Source: Mesorhizobium erdmanii USDA 3471 (GTDB lineage: Bacteria > Pseudomonadota > Alphaproteobacteria > Rhizobiales > Rhizobiaceae). From it: a stretch of DNA of 64,000 nucleotides. Below the pieces are notes generated by a model. The model saw only the letters and a list, made by a program, of their open reading frames with translations. It had not been told where the DNA came from and did no database searches. Location: the NCBI RefSeq assembly GCF_000472705.1, contig NZ_AXAE01000008.1, positions 372,001 to 436,000 of the forward strand, given 5' to 3'. This document shows positions 57,256 to 63,702 of this stretch, in pieces (position 1 is the first letter of the stretch; every line of letters begins with the position of its first letter). A program made the position numbers and the translations under genes.

Positions 57256-57437
57256 CCGATCGGTCCCTACCGCACCGCACCTAATACCAAAGTCATAATC
57301 CCATCGTCGCTCTGCCGCCGGCGCGCGCTTTCTGTCATTTTTTGCGGGATGGCTCGGCATTTCCGAGTCCGCGTTCGGAGGAGAGCGCGGATTTTGGCGC
57401 CTACATCGAGGACAGGGTCTCACGGGAGGACAACTCA

Positions 57438-59327
57438 ATGGCACTTGCATCGACCGCCGGCGGAACCAGCCGCGGCATGACGCGGGAAGAGAAGAAAGTC
57501 ATCTTCGCTTCCTCGCTGGGCACCGTTTTCGAATGGTACGATTTTTATCTCTACGGCTCGCTGGCGGCCTTCATTGGTTCGACTTTCTTCAGCCCGACCA
57601 TTCCCGAAGCGACGCGCAACATATTCGCCTTGCTGGCATTTGCCGCCGGCTTTCTCGTTCGACCGTTCGGCGCACTGCTGTTCGGCCGCATCGGCGACCT
57701 CGTCGGACGCAAATACACCTTCCTCGTCACCATGACGATCATGGGCCTGTCCACCTTCCTGGTTGGCCTGTTGCCCGGTTACGCGACTTTGGGCATCGCG
57801 GCTCCCATCATTCTGATCGTGCTGCGTATGCTGCAGGGCCTGGCGCTCGGCGGCGAATATGGCGGCGCGGCGACCTATGTTGCCGAGCACGCGCCGGACG
57901 ACCGTCGCGGGTTCTACACGTCATGGATCCAGACGACGGCGACGCTCGGCCTGTTCCTGTCGCTCATCGTCATCCTGATCGTCCAGGGCTCGCTGAGCAA
58001 GGAAACCTACGCCGCCTGGGGTTGGCGCATTCCTTTCATCGTCTCCTTCCTGCTGCTCGCCGTTTCGGTCTGGATCCGGTTGTCGCTCTCGGAATCACCG
58101 ACCTTCCAGAAGATGAAGGAGGAAGGAAAAGGCTCCAAGGCGCCGCTATCGGAAGCCTTCGGTCAGTGGAAGAACGCCAAGATCGCGCTGCTGGCGTTGC
58201 TCGGCCTCACCGCCGGTCAAGCCGTCGTCTGGTACAACGGCCAGTTCTACGCATTGTTCTTCCTGCAGAACGTGCTGAAGGTCGATGCACAGTCGGTCAA
58301 CATAATGATCGCCATCGCGCTGGCGCTCGGCTCGCTCTTCTTCGTTGTTTTCGGGTGGCTCTCCGACAAGATCGGCCGCAAGCCGATCATCATGGCCGGC
58401 CTCGCGCTCGCCATCGTCTGCACCTTCCCGCTGTTCAAGGCGCTGACCTGGGCTGCCAATCCGGCACTCGCCAAGGCGCAGCAGAGTACGCGGGCAACGG
58501 TGACGGCAGCTCCCGGCGACTGCAAGTTCCAGTTCAATCCAGTTGGAACGGCGAAGTTTACGACGTCCTGTGACATTGCGACTTCATTCCTGACCAAGAA
58601 CTCGGTTCCGTATGATGTCGTCTCGACCGCCGCGACCGGAACGGCTGCGTCGGTGAAGATCGGCAACGAGACCGTGTCGTCCTACGATGCGGTAGCCGCT
58701 GGTGATCAGGCCAAGGCCAAGGACGCTGCTTTCGTCAAAGCGGTCAACATGTCGCTGCAGGACAGCGGATATCCGCTGAAGCGCGCTGCCATCAAGGTCG
58801 CGGATCAGAAACTGGACGCCTTCATCGCGAGCAATCCCGAACTCAAGCTCGACGCGGCATCGATACGCGGCGGCGAGAAGACAGCGGTGCCGACCGACCA
58901 GGCGGTCAAGGACAAACTCTTGACCACCGAAGAGGCAGCGGGGGCGCCCGAAGTCACCGTCTACAACATACCGGGCGGCGGCGCCTTCGCCATGTTCGCC
59001 GACCCGGCGGCCGTGAACTGGCCGATGACAATCGGAATCCTGTTCATCCTGGTGCTGTTTGTGACCATGGTCTACGGGCCGATCGCGGCGATCCTGGTCG
59101 AGATGTTCCCGACCCGCATCCGCTATACCGGCATGTCGCTACCCTACCACATCGGCAATGGCTGGTTCGGCGGCCTGCTACCGGCAACGGTGTTCGCTCT
59201 TAGCGCGTACAAGGGCGACATCTACTACGGCCTCTGGTACCCGGTGGTGATCGCGGCGATCACGCTGGTCATCGGCATGATCTTCGTCAAGGATACGCTT
59301 GGCACCGACCTCCACGCCAAGGAGTAG
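57438..59327 (+). CDS. MFS transporter, metabolite:H+ symporter (MHS) family, with large soluble insertion
   Basis: 629 residues, against about 430-450 for ordinary members. Twelve helices are recognisable. MHS signatures include FEWYDFYLYGSLAAFI, RPFGALLFGRIGDLVGRKY and LALGGEYGGAATYVAEH. Between the helix near residue 340 and the next at about 525 lies a hydrophilic region of about 170 residues with two cysteines (about 362 and 378). From topology this loop should face the periplasm. The substrate is probably a carboxylate or other metabolite. GGGAGGACAAC precedes ATG 57438; a terminator follows. Confidence 0.9.
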   Translation: MALASTAGGTSRGMTREEKKVIFASSLGTVFEWYDFYLYGSLAAFIGSTFFSPTIPEATRNIFALLAFAAGFLVRPFGALLFGRIGDLVGRKYTFLVTMTIMGLSTFLVGLLPGYATLGIAAPIILIVLRMLQGLALGGEYGGAATYVAEHAPDDRRGFYTSWIQTTATLGLFLSLIVILIVQGSLSKETYAAWGWRIPFIVSFLLLAVSVWIRLSLSESPTFQKMKEEGKGSKAPLSEAFGQWKNAKIALLALLGLTAGQAVVWYNGQFYALFFLQNVLKVDAQSVNIMIAIALALGSLFFVVFGWLSDKIGRKPIIMAGLALAIVCTFPLFKALTWAANPALAKAQQSTRATVTAAPGDCKFQFNPVGTAKFTTSCDIATSFLTKNSVPYDVVSTAATGTAASVKIGNETVSSYDAVAAGDQAKAKDAAFVKAVNMSLQDSGYPLKRAAIKVADQKLDAFIASNPELKLDAASIRGGEKTAVPTDQAVKDKLLTTEEAAGAPEVTVYNIPGGGAFAMFADPAAVNWPMTIGILFILVLFVTMVYGPIAAILVEMFPTRIRYTGMSLPYHIGNGWFGGLLPATVFALSAYKGDIYYGLWYPVVIAAITLVIGMIFVKDTLGTDLHAKE

Positions 59328-59600: not shown

Positions 59601-59813
59601 GAGCGGTCTCCTTTCTTTTTCAGGAGCTTGTCGATTCAGCTTCCCTAAAGATAGGCTCTGCGATTCCTTTAGGCAATATGCCTACAAAAAGATCAGTAAT
59701 TGCCTGTTATTGATGCATTTTGAACTTCTGATCGATCTCGACCCAGTGATGAGGCGGCTCAGCAAATTCCACGGGATATCGCTGCCATTTTGCCGCACCC
59801 GTCGAAGCCGGAG

Positions 59814-59829
59814 TGGCACACGAATTGCG
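59814..59829 (+). promoter_or_regulatory. Sigma-54 (RpoN) promoter of glnII
   Basis: TGGCAC at 59814-59819, five bases, then TTGCG at 59825-59829: a full match to the TGGCAC-N5-TTGC consensus. About 87 bases before the glnII start. Implies nitrogen-limitation control through an enhancer-binding protein such as NtrC; no clear NtrC site was found. Confidence 0.88.
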
Positions 59830-59915
59830 TTTTAGGGATCGGCAGCGCCGGCTGCCGACGGCGGATGCATGTCGACGCCGTTTGGTGTTCGGTGAACAAG
59901 CAACGAGAGGCTAGA

Positions 59916-60956
59916 ATGACGAAATATAAGCTCGAGTACATTTGGCTCGATGGATACACCCCGGTCCCCAACCTTCGCGGCAAGACGCAGGTCAAGGAAT
60001 TCGCCGAATTCCCGACGCCTGAAGAGCTGCCGCTGTGGGGCTTCGATGGCTCCTCCACGATGCAGGCCGAGGGCCACAGCTCCGACTGCGTGTTGAAGCC
60101 GGTCGCGGTGTATCCGGATCCGACCCGCACCAACGGCGTGTTGGTCATGTGCGAAGTCATGATGCCGGATGGCGTGACACCGCATGCCTCCAACAAGCGC
60201 GCCACCATCCTCGATGACGAGGGTGCCTGGTTCGGCTTCGAGCAGGAGTATTTCTTCTACAAGGACGGCCGCCCGCTCGGCTTTCCGGAGAGCGGTTATC
60301 CCGCGCCGCAGGGTCCGTACTACACCGGCGTCGGCTACAAGAACGTTGGCGATGTCGCACGCCAGATCGTCGAAGATCATCTCGACCTTTGCCTCGCCGC
60401 CGGGATCAACCATGAAGGCATCAACGCCGAAGTGGCCAAGGGCCAGTGGGAATTCCAGATATTTGGCAAGGGCTCCAAGAAGGCCGCCGACCAGATGTGG
60501 ATCGCCCGCTATCTGCTTCTGCGCCTCACCGAGAAATACCGCATCGACATCGAATTCCACTGCAAGCCGCTCGGCGATACCGATTGGAACGGCTCGGGCA
60601 TGCATGCCAACTTCTCGACCGCCTATATGCGCGAAGTCGGCGGCAAGGCGTATTTCGAATCATTGATGGCGCAGTTCGACAAGAACCTGATGGACCACAT
60701 CGCCGTCTACGGCCCGGACAACGACAAGCGCCTGACCGGCAAGCACGAGACCGCGCCGTGGAACAAGTTCAGCTACGGTATTGCCGACCGTGGCGCTTCG
60801 ATCCGCGTGCCGCACTCCTTCGTCAAGAATGACTACAAGGGTTATCTGGAAGACCGCCGCCCGAACTCGCAAGGCGACCCCTACCAGATCGCTTCGCAGA
60901 TCCTGAAGACCATCTCGGAGGTTGCGACCGACGCGAAGGTCTCGGCCGCTGCCTGA
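59916..60956 (+). CDS. glnII: Glutamine synthetase II (eukaryotic-type, GSII)
   Basis: 346 residues. Assimilates ammonium: glutamate + NH4 + ATP to glutamine. This type is found in rhizobia beside the bacterial GSI. Seen: WGFDGSSTMQAEG, FGFEQEYFFYKDGRPLGFP, the GINAEVAKGQWEFQIFG block and NGSGMHANFSTAYMR. ATG 59916 follows GAGAGGCTAG; the frame is open far upstream but the start MTKYKLEYIWLDG is standard. Unlike GSI it is not adenylylated; it is controlled by transcription. Confidence 0.97.
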   Translation: MTKYKLEYIWLDGYTPVPNLRGKTQVKEFAEFPTPEELPLWGFDGSSTMQAEGHSSDCVLKPVAVYPDPTRTNGVLVMCEVMMPDGVTPHASNKRATILDDEGAWFGFEQEYFFYKDGRPLGFPESGYPAPQGPYYTGVGYKNVGDVARQIVEDHLDLCLAAGINHEGINAEVAKGQWEFQIFGKGSKKAADQMWIARYLLLRLTEKYRIDIEFHCKPLGDTDWNGSGMHANFSTAYMREVGGKAYFESLMAQFDKNLMDHIAVYGPDNDKRLTGKHETAPWNKFSYGIADRGASIRVPHSFVKNDYKGYLEDRRPNSQGDPYQIASQILKTISEVATDAKVSAAA

Positions 60957-61010
60957 TTGTTTTGCGCGGCGCGGATCACAATATCTTCGCCGCGTCCAGA
61001 TCTTGGTAAC

Positions 61011-61044
61011 AAAAGCCCTGGAGGGAAACCGCCAGGGCTTCTTC
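61011..61044 (+). terminator. Terminator of glnII
   Basis: AAGCCCTGG at 61013-61021 and CCAGGGCTT at 61032-61040 pair perfectly over 9 bp, followed by CTTC. Located 55 bases after the stop. Confidence 0.8.
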
Positions 61045-61760
61045 ATGACGACCGGCGCCGATTGCGCGATTGGCGCCAACCTCGCCGCCAGCCTGGCCGG
61101 GGCCGTCGTACTCGCCCATGCCGGAGAAACCCGATCCGGAGATGCCGCGCTGACCGCGAGCGTGCGCATAAGCCATTGAAGCCGCGTCGAACCGGTGAAA
61201 CAGCGTCGGGTGGAATACACCCAAAAAAAGTCAGGTTGAAAACGACCGGCCAACTTCGCCCGGCGGAGACGCTTTTGGCCCGCGCCAGTTGCCGTGATGC
61301 GCGCTGAACGCTTCAAACTTCGTTGAAAAAGCCCGGAAAACGGCCTGTTCCAGGTCGTCCGTACACCAATGATCAGTCATATAACCCGCTGTTCATGCAT
61401 CGAAATTCGCGATGCATGCGTTCGGCCGGCGGCGTTGACAGATCACGCTGCGGCATGCGTATTCCGGGCCTTGGGGTTACGCCAAAGCGATGCTGTTCAA
61501 ACGGGGCGGGGTTTCTTGAACGACGGCATTGGCGGGGGCGCCGGACGAGCGGGCATTGCAGCCTGAGGCAGTGTGCCGCTCGCTCCTGGCGATTGATCGT
61601 GCTCAACATCCGACCGTCGATGTCGACGAGCCTGAGACGGCTCGGAGCGATGAGCTTTCTATCGGCGGCCCGGCCGGCTATACGGCGCAAAATCAAACCA
61701 GTGACTGCCGTTGTGTGACTCGATCTTCGCCCAATTCGTCGATGCAGAGCTTGCAGGCAG

Positions 61761-61800
61761 CAAAAAGCCCTTGAAGGCGGAAACCTTCAAGGGCTTTTTT
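61761..61800 (-). terminator. Bidirectional terminator after glnA
   Basis: AAAAAGCCCTTGAAGG and CCTTCAAGGGCTTTTTT form a 16-bp stem with A/T runs on both sides, so it works on both strands. It lies 15 bases beyond the glnA stop. Confidence 0.93.
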
Positions 61801-61814
61801 GTCCGAGCCGGTTC

Positions 61815-63224
61815 TTAGACCGAGTAGTACATGTCGTACTCGACCGGATGCGGGGTCATTTCGAAGCGCATCACCTCGGCCATCTTCAGCTCGATATAGC
61901 TATCGATCTGGTCGTCGTCGAAGACGCCGCCGGCCTTCAGGAAGCCGCGATCCTTGTCGAGGCTCTGGAGGGCTTCACGCAGCGAACCGCAGACGGTCGG
62001 GATCTTCTTCAACTCCTTCGGCGGCAGGTCGTAGAGATCCTTGTCCATCGGCTGTCCCGGGTGGATCTTGTTCTTGATGCCGTCGAGGCCCGCCATCAGC
62101 ATGGCGGCGAAGGCGAGGTAAGGGTTCGCGCCCGGATCAGGGAAGCGAACCTCGACGCGCTTGGCCTTCGGCGACGAGCCGAACGGAATGCGGCAGGAGG
62201 CCGAACGATTGCGCGCCGAATAGGCGAGCAGCACCGGCGCTTCGTAGCCAGGCACCAGGCGCTTGTAGGAGTTGGTCAGCGGGTTGGTGAAGGCGTTGAT
62301 CGCCTTGGCGTGCTTGATGATGCCGCCGATGTAGAACAGGCAGCTTTCCGACAGGCCGGCATACTCATTGCCGGCGAAGGTCGGCTTGCCACCCTTCCAG
62401 ATCGACTGGTGGACGTGCATGCCCGAGCCGTTGTCGCCGAAGATCGGCTTCGGCATGAAAGTAGCCGTCTTGCCATAGGCGTTGGCGACCTGGTGCACGA
62501 CATACTTGTAGATCAGCATCTTGTCGGCGTTACGGACCAGCGTGTCGAACTTGATGCCCAGTTCGTGCTGGGCGGCGGCGACCTCGTGGTGATGCTTTTC
62601 GACGCGTACGCCCATTTCGGCGAGCACGGTCAGCATCTCGGAGCGCATGTCCTGCGCGCTGTCGATCGGCGGCACCGGGAAATAGCCGCCCTTGATGCGC
62701 GGGCGGTGACCAAGGTTGCCGGTCTCGTAGTCGGTGTCGTCATTGGACGGCAGTTCGGTCGAATCGAGCCTGAAGCCGGTGTTGTAGGGATCAGCCTTGT
62801 ACTTGACGTCGTCGAACACGAAGAACTCGGCTTCCGGGCCGACATAGATGGTGTCGCCGATGCCTTCCGCCTTCATGTAGGCCTCGGCCTTCTTGGCAGT
62901 GCCGCGCGGATCGCGGTTGTAGGATTCGCCCGAAACCGGATCGAGAATGTCGCACAGGATGACCATGGTCGACTGGGCGAAGAACGGGTCCATGTGGACC
63001 GTGTCCGGATCGGGCATCAGCACCATGTCGGACTCGTTGATGGCCTTCCAGCCGGCGATCGACGAGCCGTCGAACATGACGCCATCGGCAAACATGTCCT
63101 CCTCGACCTCGACGACATCCATCGTCACGTGCTGCAGCTTGCCCTTCGGGTCGGTGAAGCGCAGGTCGACGAATTTCACGTCGTTATCCTTGATCTGCTT
63201 CATGATGTCTTTGGCTGTCGTCAT
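61815..63224 (-). CDS. glnA: Glutamine synthetase I
   Basis: 469 residues. Main ammonium-assimilating enzyme, dodecameric. Seen: [30 protein letters not shown], the [17 protein letters not shown] region, the [21 protein letters not shown] block and the adenylylation segment [12 protein letters not shown] with Tyr. Start 63224 with GGGAAG upstream. It follows glnB by 58 bases and is probably transcribed from the glnB promoter; activity is likely set by GlnE and PII. Confidence 0.98.
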
Positions 63225-63282
63225 GTCATTTCTTCCCTGTGTGGTGACGTTTCGAGGAGACGATAATCTGAAATCAGAAAGC

Positions 63283-63702
<420 letters not shown>

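Follow-up and report, generated by a model that had tools for sequence, protein, structure and literature searches.

The gene at 57438..59327 (+ strand) of the window, that is, of the whole stretch of 64,000 nucleotides that was analysed, encodes an MFS transporter of the Deh4p type with a soluble domain in the loop between membrane helices TM9 and TM10. On balance, the evidence leans towards reading this domain as an inserted, divergent glutaredoxin-like module on the periplasmic side, stabilised by a disulfide and acting as a non-catalytic accessory of the transporter.

The reading frame at 57438-59327 (+) specifies 629 amino acids plus a stop. A likely ribosome-binding site, GGGAGG, was read from the sequence at 57424..57429 (+), 8 bases 5' of the ATG, and the start is further supported by the consensus of relatives, which opens with MA at the same position; a promoter scan found none. 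Among 37 genomes of the same genus (its own included), 32 hold the gene uninterrupted over residues 1-628/629, and a frame or assembly artefact was ruled out because the gene is in one piece in these genomes. In genome G005 it lies in two frames, split at residue 153/154 (G005:C1:5339261-5341143), which makes it a pseudogene or the product of a sequencing error, and a full copy was not found in four of the 37 (G006, G007, G024 and G027).

Both Pfam models of the transporter core place the protein in the MFS, with 131.9 bits against a gathering cut-off of 22.3 for PF00083 (Sugar_tr; best stretch residues 23-239) and 100.9 bits against 33.4 for PF07690 (MFS_1; residues 40-336). The best NCBIfam model is TIGR00883 (2A0106, metabolite/H+ symporter), which matches in two stretches with an E-value of 1.7e-106; its curated cut-off of 443.45 bits is not reached by the 629-residue protein (356.7 bits), which is therefore filed as a Deh4p-type, MHS-like MFS transporter and not as a member of TIGR00883. 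A preliminary description of the sequence had called it an MHS-family transporter; of that label the MFS part stands, and the TIGR00883 score falls short, though no NCBIfam model fits better.

The AlphaFold2 model of the whole protein (pLDDT 84.4, pTM 0.83, from an alignment of 80 sequences) has twelve membrane helices when counted by eye, and its secondary structure assigns TM1-TM9 to 57483..58457 (+, residues 16-340) and TM10-TM12 to 59019..59285 (+, residues 528-616). TM9 (residues 314-340) and TM10 (528-546) flank a soluble insert of approximately 187 residues, at about 341-527. The insert of roughly 170 residues in a 629-residue protein that had been described before is thus real, and its proposed bounds of 350-522 give way to these wider ones. 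In MFS proteins, motifs of the GWLSDKIGRK type are cytoplasmic; in the window protein GWLSDKIGRK directly precedes TM9, which places the TM9-TM10 loop on the periplasmic side, as had been supposed. A cytoplasmic insert, an outcome that would have spoken against the preliminary description, was ruled out by this topology and by the PhoA-LacZ fusions published for Deh4p, a relative (PMC2777183).

Deh4p and its paralogue Dehp2 are haloacid/acetate permeases of Paraburkholderia caribensis (Burkholderia sp.) MBA4 that belong to the MHS family (PMC2777183). According to that paper, Deh4p, which has been expressed in laboratory E. coli in published work, has 552 residues and 12 predicted transmembrane segments, and a long loop of 118 residues (337-454) between TM9 and TM10 was mapped as periplasmic by the fusions in 2009, its role being left open by the authors; the word cysteine is absent from their text. 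The primers given there can be decoded into the motifs MIADPS, SSCDVA, APAGTV, KAADAK, TAGYPA, LINWPMS and LTILVLYVT, which end at Deh4p residues 358, 379, 400, 421, 442, 454 and 466, respectively (PMC2777183), and most of them recur in the family of the window protein with their order kept. The two proteins thus share the MFS core, the 12 segments, a long periplasmic TM9-TM10 loop and the SSCDVA, APAGTV and TAGYPA motifs, whereas the insert of the window protein is some 70 residues longer, a comparison made on the Deh4p side through the primer-decoded motifs. The assignment to the Deh4p type rests on the long loop at residues 341-527 and on the SSCD(V/I)A ... GYP motifs in the 80-row consensus. 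The TC number of Deh4p differs between sources, being 2.A.1.6.8 in one (PMC2777183) and 2.A.1.6.13 in another (PMC7419537). Since Deh4p with the same loop is already in print, the window protein is of a real but already described kind.

A second point of comparison is provided by the proton-coupled MFS transporters PepT1 and PepT2 (SLC15), in which a folded domain likewise sits between TM9 and TM10, on the extracellular side (PMC4597091, PMC8565842). It consists of two immunoglobulin-like lobes (PMC4597091), which lie at the C-bundle and are dispensable for transport (PMC8565842), and a 2021 paper states that no MFS transporters besides PepT1 and PepT2 are known to carry an extracellular domain at that place (PMC8565842). 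These proteins are mammalian and their lobes differ in fold from the insert, with which no kinship is claimed. The earlier statement that the insert is not a usual feature of the MFS consequently holds when the protein is set against its insert-free relatives, in which the same loop measures 6-18 residues (23 of 23), and does not hold against a loop that has been in print since 2009 and a mammalian domain at the same junction. The present results suggest that a subfamily of bacterial MFS transporters, too, has a folded domain at this junction; for a loop printed in 2009 and left without an assigned role since, they propose a fold and two cysteines that can be tested. No paper naming the Deh4p-type loop glutaredoxin-like was found in the open-access literature, and neither the strict pairing of the cysteines nor the one-time gain of the insert was found in print there; InterPro, ECOD and TED lay outside this search, and the identity may be recorded elsewhere.

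The conservation of the insert was followed in a sample drawn from a scan of 84,980 species genomes, which gave at least 595 relatives, of which 80 were kept. These loci (L004-L083) were fetched with six peptide patterns, two of which fall inside the insert; 40 further stretches were picked from the match list (39 with the insert and one without it) and 20 more were picked as insert-free. Given that patterns lay in the insert and that stretches were picked by insert status, the conservation counts hold for insert-bearing genes. The 80-row alignments consist of the window and 79 of the 80 loci, L083 being left out there and included in the 164-protein alignment; L001 was dropped because it is identical to the query, and 119 of the 164 inserts remain when the core is reduced to below 90% identity. 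Eight residues are invariant in all 80 rows (C362, F364, S377, C378, D379, L385, Y392 and G444), and the tyrosine at 392 is found in all 164 inserts. The insert itself, its position and this conservation are direct observations.

When the insert was sought as a separate domain, in an even sample of 299 genomes across the phylum Pseudomonadota, its profile gave 81 matches in 69 of them, and all 81 overlap a match to the transporter, so that no free-standing copy was seen among them. With a family this common, any effect on carboxylate uptake would be widely useful. As for origin, the insert-free relatives, which include L184 (a frame of 445 residues) and two proteins of the window's own genome (L002 and L003), are built on the same transporter core; L184, which shares 50% identity with the window protein, lacks the insert and has a loop of 12 residues. 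In a tree built without the insert columns, in which Deh4p itself is absent, 56 insert-bearing rows group together on a single branch (support 99/95), within which L184 is nested, and two changes suffice: the insert was gained once and lost once. The descent of the Deh4p-type subfamily from a single insertion is what this tree gives, with long branches for L184 and L003; the gain is the surer of the two events, since the branch of L184 is long and that of the outgroup L003 very long.

The preliminary description had suggested that the insert could be a built-in domain, and structure prediction bears this out: modelled alone, from an alignment of 80 sequences, it reaches a pLDDT of 89.6 and a pTM of 0.80, values that rule out a disordered linker. 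The core (58458..58787, +, residues 341-450) is ordered β-α-β-β-β-α, with a strand at 353-356, a helix at 377-387, strands at 392-395, 405-408 and 411-414, and a helix at 418-442, and this order we take to be that of a minimal glutaredoxin. In the comparison with VIA-align, the best rows are cGrx1 (Z 6.4; 62 residues at 2.4 Å), Spx (6.3) and NrdH (6.0); these top rows (Z 6.4-6.0, 60-63 residues, 2.3-2.6 Å) lie below the level of 8 that is safe for the tool and are no proof. Judging by the names that were recognised, most of the 50 rows are presumably thioredoxin-fold proteins. Foldseek gave no PDB match at E ≤ 0.001 (the best, at 0.09, was an ATP synthase entry) and no match for the insert in BFVD. 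A sequence search of solved structures with the insert found none, and its profile recovered no thioredoxin-fold chain there, its three matches (E ≥ 0.57) being to other proteins. Together with the profiles described below, these models make a glutaredoxin-like (thioredoxin) fold of the core probable as a prediction.

Sequence profiles point in the same direction independently. A profile of the core of about 100 residues, built from 119 sequences, was compared by hhalign with 50 glutaredoxins gathered from the loci and gave a probability of 82.4 and a score of 33.0. The highest score was 17.4 among 147 decoy windows, which came from other gene families, and 14.8 when the columns of the glutaredoxin alignment were shuffled 100 times. 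The overlap covers only 42 columns, spanning helix 1 through strand 4, in a register common to the profile alignments: SCDIATSFLTKNSVPYDVV falls on the helix behind CPYC together with the strand after it, GTAASVKIGNETVSSYD falls on the stretch TVPQIFI...GG.D, and the second cysteine of CPYC is aligned with C378. When 14,609 open reading frames were ranked by HMM, the 164 family members came first and glutaredoxins made up 30 of the next 50 (50 are labelled in all), an enrichment that its p-value of 1e-65 overstates, given that the labelled glutaredoxins are related to each other. The main clade alone scores 25.3 against glutaredoxins (decoys up to 18.6), and for the nine far members the score is 23.8, below that of one decoy (25.2). 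The NCBIfam model TIGR02196 (glutaredoxin-like YruB) matches one of five inserts scanned, over the same helix (E 0.029). Thioredoxin and GST_N profiles do not match the core (9.1 and 17.0). The insert of the window protein matches no Pfam family at E ≤ 10, there is no glutaredoxin (PF00462) among the best 25 of the 27 Pfam families that match any of 80 inserts at that threshold, and the Pfam glutaredoxin was not found in seven distant inserts.

The strongest alternative is that the insert is an unrelated small α/β domain, in which a helix-strand motif has come to resemble glutaredoxin by convergence. It agrees with the absent Foldseek matches, with the shortness of the profile overlap and with a failing reverse search, in which the glutaredoxin profile, run against all reading frames, did not single out the inserts (best rank 72nd of the 1107 outside the glutaredoxins). 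It is nevertheless unlikely, since profile and predicted fold agree independently and the profile alignments keep a single register.

Whatever its ancestry, the domain differs from glutaredoxins of PF00462 in that it lies inside a membrane transporter and lacks the usual residues of catalysis. The two cysteines noted in the preliminary description are present, with the codon of C362 at 58521..58523 (+) and that of C378, in the first turn of helix 1, at 58569..58571 (+). Cysteine occupies the column of C378 in 164 of 164 inserts and that of C362 in 162, the two exceptions (L150 and L165) having their first cysteine a few residues upstream. Each of the 164 inserts contains exactly two cysteines, which makes the disulfide suggested earlier between C362 and C378 plausible, whereas the rest of the same proteins contain 0-5; 12-20 residues separate the pair in all of them, and 15 in 137. 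Cysteine is never found at the position of the glutaredoxin nucleophile, three residues before C378 (0 of 164; threonine in 114), and a CxxC or CxxS active site with an N-terminal nucleophilic cysteine is absent from all 164 inserts. Nor is the cis-proline before strand 3 conserved, proline occurring in 57 of the 164 at column 403 and alanine in the window protein. The absence of the catalytic cysteine and of a conserved cis-proline argues for an accessory domain pinned by a disulfide rather than an active redox enzyme. In the oxidising periplasm, the sequence suggests two cysteines joined in a structural bond that spans the former active-site loop, and no functional glutaredoxin; this disulfide, like the fold, is predicted.

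The same cysteines could instead form a redox switch, in which periplasmic thiols or thiol oxidoreductases open and close C362-C378, the domain senses redox and transport is gated. A glutaredoxin-like core with a cysteine pair strictly kept at the place of the active site is what such a switch would have, and yet the empty nucleophile position and the rarity of proline at the cis-proline position make it rather improbable, as does the variable spacing of the cysteines, which a structural bond could tolerate. Very doubtful is the bolder proposal that a whole branch of bacterial MFS carboxylate transporters captured a periplasmic glutaredoxin, whose split disulfide senses the redox state of the envelope and gates uptake; if the redox-sensing reading were true, the protein would be a redox-regulated secondary transporter.

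Returning to the disulfide-stabilised accessory domain, as regards role and substrate we infer that the gene product would be a Deh4p-type transporter that moves organic anions with the help of protons, acetate or similar short carboxylates being the best guess at its substrate. A single domain would have been inserted between TM9 and TM10 in the ancestor of the subfamily, with a core of approximately 100 residues that would lie on the periplasmic face and be glutaredoxin-like (thioredoxin-fold), though divergent; the C362-C378 disulfide would bridge the loop from strand 1 to helix 1, the site of the active site in glutaredoxins. The domain probably rides on the C-terminal helix bundle, at the junction of its two helix triplets, which is where it would be expected by analogy with the PepT1/PepT2 domain, which sits on the C-bundle at the same junction. 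There it would most probably shape access to the periplasmic opening or stabilise the transporter.

The surroundings of the gene bear on another proposal, namely that the domain is a platform on which another periplasmic protein docks, as has been proposed for PepT1/PepT2 with trypsin. The insertion at the same junction as in those proteins (PMC4597091, PMC8565842) and the variable length and sequence of the insert outside its small core would suit such a platform, which is nonetheless improbable, as none of the neighbour genes that were checked follows the transporter widely: EamA and ATP12 genes were found in 9 of 80 related loci and GSII in 10, some of the loci having short flanks. Apart from one GSII match, the neighbours recur only in near relatives. 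The neighbourhood was likewise of no help as a clue to the substrate, the window's neighbours occurring in few of the 80 loci. Downstream, 59790-63684 holds what we take to be genes for a type II glutamine synthetase (ending at 60956, +), glnA (61815-63224, -) and PII (63283-63684, -); glnA and PII neighbours were found in 8 of the 80 related loci.

Substrate capture, which the preliminary description had also raised and in which the domain would bind the anion on the periplasmic side and pass it on so that the transporter has a high affinity, is a poor prospect. It would suit the Km values tabulated for Deh4p (5.5 μM for acetate and 9 μM for monochloroacetate; PMC7419537) and is opposed by D379 being the only invariant charged residue of the insert in 80 rows and by the uptake of peptides and drugs by PepT2, which was unaffected by removal of its extracellular domain (PMC4597091).

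The insert varies in length. The stretch corresponding to residues 336-532 measures 194-200 residues in 69 of the 164 insert-bearing proteins and 102-168 in the other 95. The full profile (positions 1-183) is matched in 13 of the 81 cases, all in the GTDB family of the window (f1, 14 genomes searched), and the remaining 68 matches end at positions 77-121; full matches confined to f1, together with the length classes, indicate a common core, besides which the window's family has a further segment of about 77 residues. This extra segment (58788..59018, +, residues about 451-527) has a confidently predicted structure in the model of the insert alone, with a fold that was not recognised; as residues 446-530 it scores 13.3-15.5 against glutaredoxin, thioredoxin, GST_N and the core, which is no match, and its fold is barely covered by the VIA-align rows, which span mainly model residues 3-104. 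Among the shorter inserts, the nine rows L153-L161, all of family f34, form a separate clade with a pattern like ECxxDPFA...CGxxL...LGVPY, which by eye is the closest to glutaredoxin. A second copy, found in a congeneric genome (G034:C22:52310-53890; 52% identical), has a gap between its two matched pieces that suggests a shorter insert, so that the extra segment would be present in some copies of the window's family and missing from others.
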